From an uncultured Clostridia bacterium (GTDB lineage Bacteria > Bacillota > Clostridia > Oscillospirales > CAG-272), in NCBI GenBank assembly GCA_944384515.1, contig CALWTU010000073.1, positions 1 through 42,506 of the forward strand: a DNA stretch of 42,506 nucleotides, read 5' to 3'. Below the pieces are notes generated by a model. The model searched no databases, was not told where the DNA came from, and worked only from the letters and a program-made list of their open reading frames with translations. This document shows, one piece after another, positions 22,206 through 42,506 of the stretch. Position 1 is the first letter of the stretch, and each line of letters begins with the position of its first letter. The position numbers were made by a program, and so were the translations under genes.

Positions 22206-22293
22206 TGGCGCAGGAAGAGGGATTCGAACCCCCGTGCCTTTTGGGCAAACGGTTTTCAAGACCGCCTCGTTGTGACCGCTTCGATATTCCTGC
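22206..22293 (-). tRNA. tRNA-Ser (anticodon UGA)
   Basis: The 88-nt gene has acceptor strands GCAGGAA/TTCCTGC, an anticodon loop with TGA (GGTCTTGAAAACC), the long variable arm of class II tRNAs (TGCCCAAAAGGCA) and T-arm GGGGGTTCGAATCCCCC. The CCA end is encoded. A strong terminator follows. Confidence 0.97.
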
Positions 22294-22460
22294 ATATACT
22301 GCAACCCATAGGGCTGCGGTTATATGCAGAGAATATCTACACGGCTCTGAAAAATTCATTTTTCAGAATCCGCTTCGCATACCCCGCGAAGTCATCGGGG
22401 AACTTGCTCACCAGTGACGAATGTGGGTATTCTCGTCTTTGACGAGATATTCTGTTACAG
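22294..22460 (+). repeat. inverted diverged copy of the tRNA-Ser-associated repeat, copy 4
   Basis: Read on the plus strand, this segment has the same module order as copies 1-3 on the minus strand: a CTGAAAAAT...ATTTTTCAG hairpin, then CAGAATCCGCTTCGCATACCCC-like sequence (compare CAGAATGGGGTTCGCATACCCC-like in copy 1, reported here as modules), then a TATTCTCGTCTTTGACGAGA hairpin at 22427. It lies on the 5' side of tRNA-Ser. The rest of 22461-22763 is AT-rich and shows nothing further apart from sequence just before tRNA-Leu. Confidence 0.4.
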
Positions 22461-22763
22461 CCTTTTTGGATTGTAAATTACTATTAAATTGTGATTTTGG
22501 AAAGTGTTAGATATTACGTTAGATATGCGAGTTTTCGCAAACCTTGTCAAACAAAAATGTATCAATCGCAAGGACTGTGCATATAATGTAATGTACATAC
22601 ATCAGTTGCCTCAAAACAATTGCCTTATTATAATACCATATTATTTGGCTTTTGTCAAGTGGAAAAAAATATTTTCTTAAAAAAATCAAAAAAAGTATTG
22701 ACATTAATGCAAAATAATGATATAATTATTAGGCAATGCGGAAGTTTCTGTTGTCGCACCAAT

Positions 22764-22852
22764 GCCGGAATGGCGGAATAGGCAGACGCCCGGGACTTAA
22801 AATCCCGTGAGAATTTTTTCTCGTACCGGTTCGACCCCGGCTTCCGGCACCA
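22764..22852 (+). tRNA. tRNA-Leu (anticodon UAA)
   Basis: GCCGGAA pairs with TTCCGGC. The anticodon stem-loop CGGGA-CTTAAAA-TCCCG reads TAA, the long variable arm is GTGAGAATTTTTTCTCGT, the T-arm is CCGGTTCGACCCCGG, and CCA is encoded. Confidence 0.97.
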
Positions 22853-22861
22853 TATTAATAT

Positions 22862-22939
22862 CGCGGGATGGAGCAGTCTGGAAGCTCGTCGGGCTCATAA
22901 CCCGAAGGTCGTGAGGTTCAAATCCCACTCCCGCAACCA
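22862..22939 (+). tRNA. initiator tRNA-fMet (anticodon CAU)
   Basis: It has the initiator hallmarks: an unpaired C1-A72 at the acceptor end (CGCGGGA versus TCCCGCA) and three consecutive G-C pairs next to the anticodon loop (GGGCTCATAACCC). The T-arm is GTGAGGTTCAAATCCCAC with encoded CCA. It lies 9 nt after tRNA-Leu, probably in one transcript. Confidence 0.96.
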
Positions 22940-36306: not shown

Positions 36307-37509
36307 TTATTTTTTACTGCCCAGACGGCTTTTAAAGTCGTCATAGCCGAAGTTTGTAAGGCGTGTAAACTCACCGTTTACATCACGCTTATATATATCC
36401 GGCAGAGGCATTCCGTTAAAAGTATTGTTTTTGCAGGTGGTATATATTGCCATGTCCCCGAAAATCACCCTGTCTCCGACTCTCAGCGGCTCGTCAAACG
36501 AATAATCTCCTATAACATCTCCGCTAAGGCATGTAGGGCCTGCAAGGCGGTATGTATTGTATTTAACCCCGGCATTATCCGCCAAAAGCAGAGGAGGTGT
36601 ATAAGGCATCTCTATTACATCCGGCATATGGCACGCCGCACTTGTATCAAGTATAGCAATATTATACCTGTCGTTTTTAACAATATCAAGAACACTGCTG
36701 ACAAGGAATCCCGCATTCAGCGCAACCGCCTCGCCCGGCTCAAGATAAACCACAAGATTATACTTTTCCTGAAAAAGTCTGATACAGCTCTTCAGAGTTT
36801 TGATGTCGTAATCCTCCCGTGTTATGTGGTGGCCGCCGCCCATATTGATCCACTTCATTCTCGGGAGAATATCCGAAAAGTTTGCCTCTACAGCACAGAG
36901 TGTTGTCTCAAGATCATCCGAATTCTGCTCGCAGAGCGTATGAAAATGTATTCCGTCAAGCAAACTCAATGTCTCACTGTCCATGCCTGCGTCCCACTCC
37001 TGCCGTGTAACGCCGAGCCTGCTGCCCGGAGCGCAGGGATCGTATATCTCATGTCCTGTTTGAGTTGAACACTGCGGGTTTATTCTAAGCCCAAGGCTCT
37101 TTCCCTCGCTTTTTGCACGGGGACCGTATTTTTTGAGCTGATATATCGAGTTGAAAACTATATGGTCGGCATATTTGAGTATCTCGCAAAACTCATCCTC
37201 ACGGTATGCGGCAGAGAAAACATGCACCTCTCTGTCTCCCATCTCCTCCCGTCCGAGCCTTGCTTCAAAGACGCCGCTCGCTTCGGTACCGCTCAGATAC
37301 TGCTTTATCAAAGGGTAAAAATCATAATTTGAAAAAGCCTTTTGTGCAAGGAGTATCCTGCACCCCGTGTCAACTATTACAGAATTCAGTATCTGTAAAT
37401 TCTTAATAAGCCTCGCCTCATCTATCACATACGCAGGTGTGGGAATGGAGGTAAAATCACTGCGCAGTATACCGATAAACTGAGGGCGGAAATCAACCTT
37501 CTCCCTCAT
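36307..37509 (-). CDS. nspC: carboxynorspermidine/carboxyspermidine decarboxylase
   Basis: NspC is a PLP enzyme of the alanine-racemase fold that decarboxylates carboxyspermidine to spermidine (or the nor-form). The 400-residue protein has PTPAYVIDEARLIKNL, the PLP lysine in LLAQKAFS (Lys57), DGIHFHTLCEQN, WINMGGGHHIT, YLEPGEAVALNAG and the C-terminal AGPTCLSGDVIGDY. It overlaps the stop of the preceding dehydrogenase gene by one base and lacks its own clear ribosome binding site, so it depends on coupling. It is the last gene of the polyamine operon. Confidence 0.95.
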   Translation of the reverse strand: MREKVDFRPQFIGILRSDFTSIPTPAYVIDEARLIKNLQILNSVIVDTGCRILLAQKAFSNYDFYPLIKQYLSGTEASGVFEARLGREEMGDREVHVFSAAYREDEFCEILKYADHIVFNSIYQLKKYGPRAKSEGKSLGLRINPQCSTQTGHEIYDPCAPGSRLGVTRQEWDAGMDSETLSLLDGIHFHTLCEQNSDDLETTLCAVEANFSDILPRMKWINMGGGHHITREDYDIKTLKSCIRLFQEKYNLVVYLEPGEAVALNAGFLVSSVLDIVKNDRYNIAILDTSAACHMPDVIEMPYTPPLLLADNAGVKYNTYRLAGPTCLSGDVIGDYSFDEPLRVGDRVIFGDMAIYTTCKNNTFNGMPLPDIYKRDVNGEFTRLTNFGYDDFKSRLGSKK

Positions 37510-38768
37510 CAGTCAACAAGTGTGGGGTTAAAGCTTTCCTGATAAGGAAGTCCGTATTTGCTAAGTGCGTCAAGGAACGGATCCGGATCAAACTCTTCAA
37601 CAGTATAAACGCCCTTCTTATCCCACTTTCCCGTAAGGAGCATAAGAGCTCCGCACATTGCAGGAACGCCTGTCGTATAGCTGATAGCCTGGCTCTCAAC
37701 CTCACGGTAGCACTCCTGGTGGTCGCAAATATTGTAGATATAATAGTTTCTCTTCTCGCCGTTCTTCTCGCCCGTGAATATGCATCCGATATTGGTCTTG
37801 CCATGAGTTCTCGGTCCGAGACTTGCCGGGTCGGGCAAAAGTGCTTTTAAGAACTTAATCGGAACTATCTCATGTCCCTCAAAGTTTATCGGAGTAGTCG
37901 AGAGCATACCGACATTCTCAAGACATCTCATATGAGTGAGATAGCTCTGACCGAATGTCATAAAGAAACGAATTCTCTTGACCTCGGGAAGATTTTGTGC
38001 AAGAGACTCTATCTCCTCATGGTGCAAAAGATACATATCCTTGTCTCCGACACCGTCAAAATTGTATTCACGCTTAATGCTCATCGGAGGGATCTCCACC
38101 CAATGTCCGTCCTCCCAATAACTGCCCATTGCGGAAACCTCTCTGAGGTTTACCTCGGGGTTAAAGTTTGTCGCAAAGGGGTATCCGTGGTCGCCGCCGT
38201 TGCAGTCAAGAATATCAATTGTATCTATTTTATCGAAATAGTGCTTCTTTGCATATGCGCAGTATGCCTGTGTTACACCAGGATCAAATCCGCATCCGAG
38301 CAGTGCAACAAGTCCTGCACGCTGAAACTTCTCACGGTATGCCCACTGCCAGCTGTAATCAAAATATGCGGTAAAGCCTTTCTCCTTACAGCGCTTCTCA
38401 TATATCTTGCGCCACTCGGGATCATCTGTATCCTCGGGCTCATAATTTGCGGTATCCATATAGTTTACTCCGCATTTGAGACAAGCGTCCATAATTGTAA
38501 GATCCTGATAAGGAAGCGCTATATTCATGACAAGATCAGGCTTATAGGAATTGATAAGCTCGCAAATCTCATCTACATTATCAGCATTAAGCTGTGCTGT
38601 GGTTATTTTTGTGTTTGTTTTGCCCTGAAGTGAGTCCTTCAAAGCGTCGCACTTTGATTTTGTCCTGCTGGCTATGCAAAGCTCGCTGAAAACCTCGCTC
38701 ACCTGACAGCATTTTCTGATTGCAACGGACGCAACTCCTCCGCATCCGATAACTAAAACTCTACTCAT
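37509..38768 (-). CDS. carboxynorspermidine/carboxyspermidine dehydrogenase (saccharopine dehydrogenase-like)
   Basis: The 419-residue enzyme begins with the NADP-binding SRVLVIGCGGVASVAIRKC and contains VNMDTANYEP-type and LLGCGFDPGVTQAYCAYA motifs typical of the Lys1-like carboxynorspermidine synthase group, with a TFGQSYLTHMRCLENVG segment later. It condenses a diamine (putrescine or diaminopropane) with aspartate semialdehyde and reduces the product to the carboxy-polyamine. Pairing with nspC confirms this over lysine metabolism. With speA and speB upstream the likely diamine is putrescine. It begins 15 nt after speB. Confidence 0.93.
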   Translation of the reverse strand: MSRVLVIGCGGVASVAIRKCCQVSEVFSELCIASRTKSKCDALKDSLQGKTNTKITTAQLNADNVDEICELINSYKPDLVMNIALPYQDLTIMDACLKCGVNYMDTANYEPEDTDDPEWRKIYEKRCKEKGFTAYFDYSWQWAYREKFQRAGLVALLGCGFDPGVTQAYCAYAKKHYFDKIDTIDILDCNGGDHGYPFATNFNPEVNLREVSAMGSYWEDGHWVEIPPMSIKREYNFDGVGDKDMYLLHHEEIESLAQNLPEVKRIRFFMTFGQSYLTHMRCLENVGMLSTTPINFEGHEIVPIKFLKALLPDPASLGPRTHGKTNIGCIFTGEKNGEKRNYYIYNICDHQECYREVESQAISYTTGVPAMCGALMLLTGKWDKKGVYTVEEFDPDPFLDALSKYGLPYQESFNPTLVD

Positions 38769-38783
38769 ATTACCCTCCGATAA

Positions 38784-39638
38784 TTACTTATTTAACGCTA
38801 ATATCAATTCGCGAAGAACTTTGCAAGCGGTTGCAGTGGACGCACCGCTTGCGTCAAGCATAGGTGCAAGCTCGTTTATATCCGCACCTACAATATTACA
38901 TTGAGAGACCTCAATAATTGCACCGAGAAGCTCCCTGAAAGTCACTCCCCCCGCCTCAGGCGTACCCGTGCCGGGAAAAACAGAGGAGTCAAGGCAGTCA
39001 AGGTCAATGGTAAAATATACGGGAACATTTTTCTGACAAAGCTCCGAAACGACCTCTTTCAGCCCGTCAAAACCAAACGGGTGCATATCCGTGTGCTCTT
39101 TTGCAAAGAGAAACTCTTCCCTGTCTGCGCTCCTTATGCAGAACTGATGTATCCTTCCGTCGCCCATCAGGTCATGACTGCGCCGCATTACTGCGGCGTG
39201 ACTGAGCCTTGCGCCGAGGTAATCGTCTCTTAGATCGGCGTGCGCATCAAAATGTATGATGTGCATATCCGGATATTTACGAAGCACCGCACGCACAGCA
39301 CCCAAGGTCACCAGATGCTCGCCGCCGATAAGAAGCGGCAGTTTTCCGAAGGAGAGTATCTGCTCCGCCCTTGCCTCTATATCAGAAAGCGCACTTTCCG
39401 CACTGCCGAAACAGAGCTCAAGGTCTCCGCTGTCAAAAGTATTGTAATCTGTCAAATCCTTGTCCTGATAAAGACTGTATGTCTCAATTCCGTAAGACTC
39501 GTGGCGTATTGCGCTGCTGCCGAACCTCGCACCAGGCCTGTAACTCGTTGTGGAATCAAACGGCGCTCCGAAAAGGACTATATCCGCCTTCTCAAACTCA
39601 CAGTCGCAACCGATAAAATTTTCTACATTTCTTTTCAT
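38784..39638 (-). CDS. speB: agmatinase-family ureohydrolase
   Basis: The 284-residue arginase-fold protein has the two-manganese site: GGEHLVTLGAVRAV, HFDAHADLRDDY and YFTIDLDCLDSSVFPGTGTP. These, and the PFDSTTSYRPGARFG start, are typical of bacterial agmatinases, which hydrolyse agmatine to putrescine and urea. The gene overlaps speE by 4 nt. It could also hydrolyse aminopropylagmatine, as in Thermus, given the adjacent speE. Confidence 0.93.
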   Translation of the reverse strand: MKRNVENFIGCDCEFEKADIVLFGAPFDSTTSYRPGARFGSSAIRHESYGIETYSLYQDKDLTDYNTFDSGDLELCFGSAESALSDIEARAEQILSFGKLPLLIGGEHLVTLGAVRAVLRKYPDMHIIHFDAHADLRDDYLGARLSHAAVMRRSHDLMGDGRIHQFCIRSADREEFLFAKEHTDMHPFGFDGLKEVVSELCQKNVPVYFTIDLDCLDSSVFPGTGTPEAGGVTFRELLGAIIEVSQCNIVGADINELAPMLDASGASTATACKVLRELILALNK

Positions 39639-40489
39639 TTCTCAACCTCCACAAGCATTCTCTCAAGAAAGGCGGGCAGATAAAATGCTCCGATATGCAG
39701 TTTTGTAGTATAATAATCGGTTTTCAAATGCCTTGATAACCATTTTTCCGCATTCATATCATCTATCGGATGATATTTTTTGCTCGCAAATCCAAAGAGC
39801 CAATATCCTGCGGCATATGTAGGAATATGTGCCTGATAAACACGGCTTATCGGAAATGTGCTGACAATCCTCTTGTGACTGCGCTGCATCGCCTCCGCAT
39901 CATGTCTGTAAAACGGACTGCCCTGCTGATTTACCATAATACCGTCCTCGCGCAGAGCGTTATAGCATATTCCGTAAAACTCTCTTGTAAAGTATCCCTC
40001 AGACGGTCCGAACGGGTCCGGAGAGTCAACGACTATAAGGTCATACTCATTCATTTTTCTTCTTATAAACCTGAGAGCATTGTCATAGTATATATGCACT
40101 CTGCTGTCGTCAAGCCTGCTGGCGTTTTCCGGCAGATATGTACGGCACACATCAACAACCATCGGGTCCATCTCAACAAGGTCAATGCGCTCGATACTGT
40201 CATACCTTGCAAGCTCCCTTACAACACCGCCGTCCCCCGCTCCTATCACAAGCACATCCCTTACATTCGGATGCACAGACATCGGCACATGTGTTATCAT
40301 CTCGTCATATATAAATTCGTCACGCTCAGTCAGCAGGACATTTCCGTCCAAGGTCAAAACTCTGCCGAACTCATCCGTCTCAAAAATATCTATCTGCTGA
40401 TACTCACTCTTCTTTGAAAAGAGATGACGGTTTACCCTGATACTGTGTTTGACATCAGGCGCGTGAAACTCACTGAACCATAAATCCAA
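39635..40489 (-). CDS. speE: spermidine synthase (aminopropyltransferase)
   Basis: The 284-residue protein has the SpeE hallmarks: LTLDGNVLLTERDEFIYDEM, VLVIGAGDGGVVREL, VEMDPMVVDVCRTYLP and IVVDSPDPFGPSEGYF. It transfers an aminopropyl group from decarboxylated S-adenosylmethionine to putrescine (or agmatine). The donor requires SpeD, which is not encoded in this window. Its place in the same operon as the carboxyspermidine enzymes is notable, since both routes give spermidine. It starts 13 nt after speA. Confidence 0.95.
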   Translation of the reverse strand: MDLWFSEFHAPDVKHSIRVNRHLFSKKSEYQQIDIFETDEFGRVLTLDGNVLLTERDEFIYDEMITHVPMSVHPNVRDVLVIGAGDGGVVRELARYDSIERIDLVEMDPMVVDVCRTYLPENASRLDDSRVHIYYDNALRFIRRKMNEYDLIVVDSPDPFGPSEGYFTREFYGICYNALREDGIMVNQQGSPFYRHDAEAMQRSHKRIVSTFPISRVYQAHIPTYAAGYWLFGFASKKYHPIDDMNAEKWLSRHLKTDYYTTKLHIGAFYLPAFLERMLVEVEK

Positions 40490-40502: not shown

Positions 40503-41963
40503 TTACAAAAGTACATTAAGGTGTTCTATATGCGGGTCCTCCGGTCCTGTCATCGAACAGCCCTTGATTTTGGCGTACTCAATATACTGAAGAACCTCTT
40601 TTGTAATTCTCTCACCCGGAGCAATAATCGGAATTCCGGGAGGATAGCACATTACAAACTCGGAACATACAAGCCCCTCGCTCTCACCGATAGGCACGCT
40701 TCTCTTATTTGCATAGAATGCCTCCTGCGGACTTGCAACAACTACCGGCTCTATATATTCCTGATTCAAAAGTCCCGACGGATCTTTATGATATCTTCGT
40801 CTTATCTCAGCCAATGCGCTGACTAATCTCTCTATATCCTGTGCTCTGTCGCCCATAGAGAGGTACGCAAGAATATTTCCTATATCTCCGAACTCAATCT
40901 GTATATCGTATTCATCTCTCAAGAGGTCATAAACCTCAATGCCCGCAAGTCCGATATCTCTTGTATGTACGCTGAGCTTTGTCGGATCAAAGTCGTATAC
41001 CGAATTGCCGTTTATAAGCTCCTTGCCAAAGGCATAGTATCCGCCGATAGAGTTTATCTCCTCCCTCGCATACTCCGCCATCTCTACAACCTTGCGGAAC
41101 ACCTCCTTGCCCCTAAGTGCAAGATTTCTGCGGCTGATATCAAGGCTTGACATCAGAAGATAACTTCCTGATGTTGTCTGTGCGAGGTTGATAATCTGCC
41201 TTACATAACCGTGATTTACATTTTCGCCTACAAGCAAAAGGCTTGACTGGGTAAGACTGCCGCCGCTCTTATGCATTGAAACCGCCGCCATATCCGCTCC
41301 TGCCGCCATTGCTGAAATCGGCATTCCCTCTCCGAAGTAAAAATGCGTTCCGTGAGCCTCGTCAACAAGACAGCGCATATTTGCCTCATGCGCCATTTTC
41401 ACTATTGCAGGCAGGTCGCTGCATATTCCGTAATATGTAGGGTTGTTGACAAGTACCGCAACCGCATCGGGGTTTTCATTTATCGCTTTCTGAACCTGCT
41501 CCCTTTGCATTCCGAGAGAAATTCCGAGCCTTACATCAACCTCGGGATTTACATACACCGGAACGGCACCGCAGAGAACCAATGCATTGATAACACTTCT
41601 GTGAACATTGCGGGGGAGTATGATTTTGTCTCCTCTCTTGCAGGTAGAAAGCACCATCGTCTGCACCGAGCTTGTCGTTCCGCCCACCATAAGAAAGGCA
41701 TGTGCGGCGCCGAATGCCTGTGCGCACAGGATCTCCGCATCATGAATAACGGATATCGGGTGACACAAATTGTCAAGCGGCTTCATACTGTTTACATCAA
41801 TCTCAACGCATCTCTGCCCGAGAAAATCTCTCAGCTCGGGATTTCCCCGTCCGTGCTTGTGTCCGGGCACGTCAAACGGCACTACCCTGTTATCCCTGAA
41901 GGTTTCAAGCGCTTCATATATCGGCGCTCTTTTTTGATCAAGAAGTTCTGTTGTTTTTTCCAT
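40503..41963 (-). CDS. speA: arginine decarboxylase, Orn/Lys/Arg decarboxylase family
   Basis: The 486-residue PLP enzyme has FDVPGHKHGRGNPELRDFL, then DNLCHPISVIHDAE, VGGTTSSVQTMVLS, VDEAHGTHFYFGEG and the PLP-lysine motif SMHKSGGSLTQSS. The length and sequence fit Bacillus-type SpeA (biosynthetic, no wing domain). Arginine to agmatine is the expected reaction because agmatinase is in the same operon, although lysine or ornithine activity cannot be excluded. A GGAGAGGGAG site precedes the start. A terminator lies only about 45 nt upstream, so expression depends on read-through of the structured leader. Confidence 0.92.
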   Translation of the reverse strand: MEKTTELLDQKRAPIYEALETFRDNRVVPFDVPGHKHGRGNPELRDFLGQRCVEIDVNSMKPLDNLCHPISVIHDAEILCAQAFGAAHAFLMVGGTTSSVQTMVLSTCKRGDKIILPRNVHRSVINALVLCGAVPVYVNPEVDVRLGISLGMQREQVQKAINENPDAVAVLVNNPTYYGICSDLPAIVKMAHEANMRCLVDEAHGTHFYFGEGMPISAMAAGADMAAVSMHKSGGSLTQSSLLLVGENVNHGYVRQIINLAQTTSGSYLLMSSLDISRRNLALRGKEVFRKVVEMAEYAREEINSIGGYYAFGKELINGNSVYDFDPTKLSVHTRDIGLAGIEVYDLLRDEYDIQIEFGDIGNILAYLSMGDRAQDIERLVSALAEIRRRYHKDPSGLLNQEYIEPVVVASPQEAFYANKRSVPIGESEGLVCSEFVMCYPPGIPIIAPGERITKEVLQYIEYAKIKGCSMTGPEDPHIEHLNVLL

Positions 41964-42008
41964 AATACTCCCTCTCCGACAGATTCATTAAGAAAAATCG
42001 GAAATAAA

Positions 42009-42041
42009 AATAAAAAAAGCAAGTTGTTTAACACAACTTGC
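42009..42041 (-). terminator. intrinsic terminator upstream of speA
   Basis: On the minus strand, GCAAGTTG (42041-42034) pairs perfectly with CAACTTGC (42026-42019), followed by T7. It separates the structured RNA from speA, and no promoter is visible between it and the gene. Confidence 0.9.
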
Positions 42042-42389
42042 AAAAAAATCCTTAAAGCGCTCTGTCCCACAAAGAGACAAAAGGCGACAAAACTGACCAA
42101 AGTCCGCATAAATCGATAAATGATCTACACAAAATTCGGCTGGATATGTGGGTACGCAGAGTCTATATAGCAATGTTACTTTTACTACTCATTATTGACC
42201 GTTTCACAAGTTAGCGTATAAACGCATTTCGGTTATAAGTAACCAACTTATAAAATTTGAGCTTTTAACTCAATCAACAAAGCGGAAAATCCGCAAATCG
42301 GCAGTGGACCCGGCTGTCCGTGTGGCCTAAACTCTCAACGAGTGGTCCGTAAAAATCGCTTGGATTGACTCTGTGTGAGACACAATCCT
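42019..42389 (-). ncRNA. large structured RNA / possible attenuator leader of the polyamine operon
   Basis: From the predicted start near 42389 to the terminator the transcript is about 370 nt and contains no credible ORF with a ribosome binding site. Visible stems are: GGATTG/CAATCC (42388-42362); GGACC/GGTCC (42348-42344 with 42310-42306) enclosing an ACTC/GAGT hairpin and a GGC/GCC hairpin as a three-way junction; GCGGA/TCCGC (42294-42282); TTGAG/CTCAA (42273-42257); an 8-bp stem (42253-42233); and GCGT/ACGC (42225-42214). A 7-bp long-range pairing, CAGAGTC (42373-42367) with GACTCTG (42163-42157), closes a domain of about 230 nt. It does not match the riboswitch classes I know. A raiA-type large ncRNA is one candidate by size, host and complexity. 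Confidence 0.65.
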
Positions 42390-42394
42390 TGAAG

Positions 42395-42423
42395 ATTATA
42401 GCACACAAAAGTAACCTTGTCAA
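42395..42423 (-). promoter_or_regulatory. perfect promoter of the structured RNA / polyamine operon
   Basis: On the minus strand, TTGACA (42423-42418), a 17-nt spacer and TATAAT (42400-42395), a full consensus match. It is the only strong promoter found upstream of speA. Confidence 0.9.
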
Positions 42424-42506
42424 TACCTTTTTTTCTTAAAAATTATTTTTTCAAAAAGCAGTTTCAAAGCAAAACAATAATCAACAAAAAGTTTTATTTT
42501 CGGGCA

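Follow-up and report, generated by a model that had tools for sequence, protein, structure and literature searches.

Does the large structured RNA encoded directly upstream of a polyamine operon in an uncultured Clostridia bacterium act as an independent transcript, or does it control the genes that follow it? An earlier note on this DNA, describing an unplaced RNA between a promoter and a terminator, had offered two readings: an abundant RNA acting on its own, with speA expressed by read-through, or a ligand- or polyamine-responsive attenuator. The window (the whole stretch of DNA analyzed, 42,506 nucleotides) contains the following features of this locus.

42395-42423, minus strand: sigma-70 promoter, TTGACA-17-TATAAT, with TG preceding the -10 box
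42157-42373, minus strand: conserved domain, helices P1a to P8, 217 nt by helix placement
42012-42041, minus strand: intrinsic terminator, stem 42041-42019 of 9 pairs plus U-run 42018-42012
40503-41963, minus strand: speA-type Orn/Lys/Arg decarboxylase (Pfam PF01276, E 1.2e-72, above cut-off; every NCBIfam match below its cut-off)
39635-40489, minus strand: speE, spermidine synthase (TIGR00417 and NF002010, above cut-off)
38784-39638, minus strand: speB, agmatinase (TIGR01230, above cut-off)
37509-38768, minus strand: carboxynorspermidine synthase-like gene (NF043000, E 7.4e-121, 404 bits, the curated cut-off of 800 not being reached)
36307-37509, minus strand: nspC, carboxynorspermidine decarboxylase (TIGR01047, above cut-off)

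The layout outlined in the earlier note was recovered. The promoter, called perfect, matches the consensus at 12/12 positions. The multi-stem structure of about 230 nt corresponds to the 217-nt domain, in which P7 forms the three-way junction with P7a and P7b, and the 7-bp long-range pairing joins CAGAGUC (42373-42367) to GACUCUG (42163-42157). The roughly 115 nt said to follow are a spacer of 115 nt (42156-42042), and the terminator, placed about 45 nt ahead of speA, has its U-run 48 nt from the speA ATG (41963). The five-gene polyamine operon was likewise confirmed by Pfam and NCBIfam models. Folding of the region 42392-42009 gave -115.5 kcal/mol, compared to -89.5 kcal/mol (sd 5.7) for 100 shuffled sequences, none of which reached this value (z -4.57). 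The window genome carries a single copy of the RNA.

The carboxyspermidine-route genes and speE are located in one operon (36307-40489). S-adenosylmethionine decarboxylase (speD) was not found in the window genome (assembly 85% complete) and speE is present, so the carboxyspermidine route may supply spermidine in this organism. Elsewhere in the window (22209-22936), Rfam models identified three tRNA genes, two of them plus-strand and one minus-strand.

An Infernal search against Rfam, suggested in the earlier note, divided the domain into a catalogued and an uncatalogued part.

42298-42348, minus strand: core, Rfam RF02440 (SpF59 sRNA, ldcC RNA), 62.2 bits against a gathering score of 37.2, full model 1-54
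42157-42295, minus strand: 3' domain, 139 nt, in no Rfam family; 136.7 bits with covariance model R1, which was built from the 3' domain alone (42 sequences, the window among them)

RF02440, a 54-nt model typed as sRNA, is the sole family reaching its gathering score in the leader. The description of the RNA as unplaced therefore does not hold for the 51 nt matched by this model and stands for the adjoining 139 nt. T-box, lysine, cobalamin, M-box and guanidine-I motifs, which the earlier note had not recognized, are absent from the seven leader matches up to E 10. The raiA motif (RF03072), named in that note as a candidate, was not matched up to E 10, and 41950-42440 gave no match to the SAM family up to E 10, as a SAM-I-type riboswitch would.

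Of 147 relatives, own genome counted, 19 carry the core, and an exact core pattern scan places it in at least 118 stretches of species genomes. Among the 80 titles listed for these stretches, one refers to a Spirochaetes MAG and the others, judging by name, to Bacillota, including Faecalibacterium, Blautia, Paenibacillus and Bacillus. Strong conservation continues for about 140 nt 3' of the core. An R1 match adjoins the core in all 35 core loci given to the model (L001 to L020, L001 being the window, and L139-L153), 25 of them outside the R1 alignment. Judged by this conservation, the catalogued 54 nt represent part of a larger conserved RNA, since the 3' domain accompanies the core in 35/35 loci. 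R1 was detected in 24 and the Rfam core in 18 of 398 genomes from the phylum of the window; all 18 lie within the 24, and each genome has one copy. An 18-nt domain pattern had no exact match in viral contigs; among plasmids there was one record, from Paenibacillus cellulosilyticus, covering 42% of the query and without listed genes.

The comparative locus set is biased, having been drawn with an exact core pattern and containing some near-duplicates (L016 equals L075 in the stretch shown). Sufficient flank was available for 133 loci, and 17 lacked the 3' boundary; after near-identical and overlong sequences had been discarded, 109 trimmed domains remained, which supplied alignments A1 (59 sequences) and A2 (42 sequences) and the 95 loci of the P1b test. 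The proposed helices are as follows.

42373-42367 with 42163-42157, minus strand: P1a, 7 bp; score 14.0 compared to 12.5 (sd 0.2) with swapped partners, 104 loci
42360-42355 with 42174-42169, minus strand: P1b, 6 bp; own-locus score 16.5 compared to 13.6 (sd 0.3) with swapped partners, 95 loci, the best stem of the window lying in a different register
42348-42344 with 42310-42306, minus strand: P2a; one pair changes on both sides (59 sequences)
42343-42340 with 42334-42331, minus strand: P2b; all five pairs change on both sides (59 sequences)
42294-42291 with 42285-42282, minus strand: P4; carries two-sided changes
42277-42274 with 42198-42195, minus strand: P5; encloses P6 and P7, near-invariant
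42271-42268 with 42262-42259, minus strand: P6; carries two-sided changes
42255-42245 with 42212-42202, minus strand: P7; encloses P7a and P7b, near-invariant
42244-42240 with 42235-42231, minus strand: P7a; two pairs change on both sides
42225-42222 with 42217-42214, minus strand: P7b; all four pairs change on both sides, 68.9% of cells paired
42190-42182 with 42173-42169 and 42162-42159, minus strand: P8; near-invariant

Covariation, proposed in the earlier note as a check on the structure, was found in the 59-sequence alignment, where the helices exceeded 500/500 shuffles. Pairing across nine helices is seen in 94.8% of cells, compared to 33 to 46% when the partners are slid. The covariation score (0.172) lies above that of shuffles (0.092; 0/500 as high) and of slid controls (at most 0.066), and the number of cells changed on both sides is 159, compared to 44 in shuffles and at most 52 in slid controls. 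Counted as pairs, two-sided changes (18) exceed the shuffles (8.7) and are near the slid controls (11 to 17). In the separate alignment of the 3' part (42 sequences), covariation likewise exceeds all 500 shuffles. P5, P7 and P8 have zero two-sided changes; the outer pairs of P8 are kept in 54 to 58 of 59 sequences, and each P1a pair, in the aligned register, in 36 to 56 of 58. P1b joins the linker ahead of the core to the P8 region. Since the 3' strands of P1 and P8 overlap, the two helices would be either in competition or part of a pseudoknot.

A local hairpin 5' of P1b received weak support (11.1 compared to 9.9, sd 0.26, in permuted controls; 104 loci), and a first RNAalifold run, on aligned sequences with long flanks, reached no more than -13.4. 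A pairing of GACC with a distal GGUC, proposed by the second RNAalifold run, was rejected. Although 54 to 59 of 57-59 sequences could form it, it shows no variation; the local P2a helix, in contrast, covaries at its outer pair.

Several natural variants depart from this architecture. In L176 and L177 (about 1350-1700, before speD) the linker, the P7 3' strand and P8 are kept, as judged by eye, whereas the core is missing together with most of the domain; in these minimal leaders most of the domain would be dispensable. L150 lacks most of P7. These three variants may mark where sensing happens. In L086 and L115, large insertions inside an otherwise conserved domain separate the P7 3' strand from the core by 272 and 259 nt, a distance that is usually 90 to 160 nt.

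The genes following the RNA could be typed in 155 of 159 loci, those with sufficient downstream DNA. The first gene was speA-type in 51 cases, speD in 51, potA-like in 24, carboxynorspermidine synthase-like in 24, an M28 peptidase gene in four and a P-II gene in one; thus, a polyamine gene of one of four types adjoins the RNA in 150/155 loci. The potA, speD, M28 and P-II references used for typing were taken from the loci themselves; when two potA-like proteins were compared with curated models, one scored above both cut-offs and the other above TIGR01187 only. These genes encode enzymes for agmatine or putrescine, enzymes of two spermidine routes, or polyamine importers, and spermidine is their common product. 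Together with the covariation and the R1 matches beside the core, this context shows a conserved, aptamer-like structure in the leaders of related genes, as would be expected of a riboswitch.

The M28 peptidases, which have a PA domain and no obvious polyamine link, follow the RNA in L012, L057, L088 and L138 (assigned by Pfam in three loci and by similarity in L057). In L089 (1554-1952), a P-II nitrogen regulator gene follows the RNA and is itself followed by a potA match, an arrangement hinting at a link between nitrogen signalling and polyamine uptake.

Promoter placement was examined in 134 of 138 loci with shuffles that preserved base composition only. Promoter-like sites (at least 10/12) were present upstream of the RNA in 98/134 loci, compared to 3.9 in shuffles, and in the 125 nt before the gene in 0/134, compared to 2.5. 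The earlier note had seen no second promoter in the window, and the same holds across these loci. Since promoter-like sites precede the RNA in most loci and none was found directly before the gene, the latter seems to depend on read-through.

If so, read-through could be governed by an alternative pairing between the domain and the terminator, for which two complementary segments are proposed.

42202-42212, minus strand: P7 3' strand, putative first half of an antiterminator, 11 bp with 42045-42035
42035-42045, minus strand: U-stretch and terminator 5' arm, putative second half, complementary to the P7 3' strand

The window segment UUUUGCAAGUU (42045-42035) can form 11 bp with AACUUGUGAAA (42212-42202), the 3' strand of P7; the multi-locus scan counted 12 instead of 11 for this pairing. 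Terminator-like hairpins were found in 115/138 loci, 15 of the 138 being set aside for want of a P7 pattern match and 8 for want of a terminator. Removal by hand of L015, L096, L117 and L129, whose hairpins were distant downstream or weak, left 111 loci for the comparative test. Near the terminator 5' arm, 87/111 loci have a pentamer able to pair with CUUGU in the P7 3' strand, compared to a mean of 18.2 and a maximum of 29 in 100 shuffles, despite distances ranging from 70 to 228 nt. Mean complementarity along the leader peaks at the terminator 5' arm (14.4 compared to 10.0), with control values of 10.8 for the terminator 3' arm and 9.3 for the spacer.

The G/A change in CUUGU(G/A)AAA tracks its terminator partner (61/89 paired compared to 56.0 in permutations, 0/5000 as high): U stands opposite in 8/10 GUAAAA domains and in 8/79 GUGAAA domains, the latter having mostly C (45) or A (23). 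Among seven flanking positions, one covaries with the terminator arm and two are uninformative, their domain base being invariant; at position -3 fewer pairs were counted than in permutations (14 compared to 34.3). In 63/111 loci a different 14-nt leader stretch pairs better with the terminator arm. Full-length prediction gave -114.6 for the fold with aptamer and terminator and -102.0 for the antiterminator fold; as the terminated fold is 12.6 kcal/mol more stable, the alternative would need to form co-transcriptionally. The comparative signal supports the antiterminator pairing, short of proving it.

Comparison of the loci shows a covarying domain of about 220 nt, preceded by a promoter and followed by a terminator and a polyamine gene. 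With reasonable confidence, the RNA is regarded as a cis-acting leader controlling its operon through premature termination, most likely a candidate polyamine riboswitch class, with spermidine as the best guess for its ligand. This corresponds to the attenuator option of the earlier note, favored by the covariation, the polyamine genes in 150/155 loci, the promoter placement and the complementarity of terminator and P7. The four M28 loci, the minimal leaders of L176 and L177, and the count of two-sided pairs close to the slid controls weigh against it. Because its 3' strand is complementary to the U-stretch and terminator 5' arm, P7 would be mutually exclusive with the antiterminator. With polyamine bound, P1 and P7 would hold, the terminator would form and transcription would stop; without it, the P7 3' strand would capture the terminator arm and the genes would be transcribed. 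An off switch is proposed because P7 belongs to the conserved domain and the genes are biosynthetic. Such a system would explain how polyamine synthesis and uptake are gated in these bacteria. Polyamines bind RNA unspecifically, which makes a dedicated polyamine switch hard to prove.

Three other explanations were weighed against the polyamine-responsive leader. One is a small RNA that stands alone and acts in trans, like SpF59 in its annotation, while transcription reaches the following gene by incidental read-through; this would agree with the sRNA type given by Rfam and with the S. pneumoniae tables, whose excerpted entries list F59/srn235/Spd_sr49 as an sRNA, with "Lung" in a virulence table. 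This option of the earlier note is disfavored, and appears quite unlikely, given the four polyamine gene types that adjoin the RNA in 150/155 loci, the promoter-like sites directly before the gene in 0/134 and the match of the terminator arm to the domain. Ribosome stalling on a short ORF, selecting between terminator and antiterminator, has a parallel in polyamine-gene leaders with uORFs, e.g. the odc1 (uORF-25-1) motif as excerpted from PMC8632094. However, Shine-Dalgarno-preceded short ORFs were found in 32/110 leaders compared to 67 in shuffles, and the distances from the core to GTCAATA are spread over the three reading frames (46/36/25 of 107), none being kept, which makes a leader-peptide attenuator highly improbable.

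A regulatory RNA-binding protein that holds the domain and sets termination would account for its high invariance, and retention of P8 and the P7 3' strand in the two natural deletion variants would be compatible with a protein site. Nevertheless, four gene types with one end product, the size of the domain and its junctions would suit a metabolite aptamer equally well or better, and a protein-bound leader is considered unlikely. The polyamine-responsive leader can also be put in a more specific form, to which we incline by a small degree: an orphan aptamer class of about 217 nt, phylum-wide and distinct from SAM-I, which would sense spermidine or a relative and attenuate both synthesis and import, pneumococcal F59 being the terminated leader before SP_0916.

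Among the known RNAs close to the window RNA, RF02440 matches 51 nt at 62.2 bits, but it is a 54-nt sRNA model, whereas in the window its counterpart is the core of a 217-nt domain with a terminator before polyamine genes. In S. pneumoniae, excerpted table entries place F59/srn235/Spd_sr49 in the gap between SP0915 and SP0916, oriented like SP0916, with a length of 82 or 327 nt (PMC3395615, PMC12323649, PMC4387999); SP_0916 is an arginine decarboxylase according to the title of a cited paper. F59 shares its Rfam name with the window core and precedes SP0916, and in these entries is treated as an sRNA. It is probably the same leader, the larger domain being suggested there by name and position, and if this is true a pneumococcal sRNA would be recast as a cis-regulator of arginine decarboxylase. 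Among the literature matches listed for RF02440, the ldcC RNA motif and speA/speD motifs, none added to the pneumococcal table entries, and a text search of PMC11109978 was equally negative. A 2017 paper is reportedly a possible source of the name "ldcC RNA", and the ldcC motif may already have a published description.

The raiA motif RNA resembles the window leader as a large conserved RNA of Bacillota and differs from it in sequence family, being unmatched up to E 10. The odc1 (uORF-25-1) and potE (WRC-18-1) motifs are, like the window RNA, candidate regulatory RNAs tied to polyamine genes; the likeness is one of descriptions, and the excerpted text of PMC8632094 assigns odc1 a uORF and rates potE a weak candidate for a riboswitch. 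According to an excerpt of PMC10853860, the validated spermidine riboswitches are rare SAM-I variants, which have speE, speB and ldcC downstream in Gram-positive hosts, polyamine genes as here, and act as off switches through a terminator and antiterminator, the working mode proposed for the window leader. The window leader differs from them in size and sequence, without a SAM-family match up to E 10, and spermidine is for it a candidate ligand only. From its conservation and gene context, the RNA is best read as a conserved cis-acting leader, a fragment of which has been catalogued, and as a candidate polyamine riboswitch class; if this is true, a second, larger polyamine class, unrelated in sequence to the SAM-I variants and present in common genera, would make a strong independent case.
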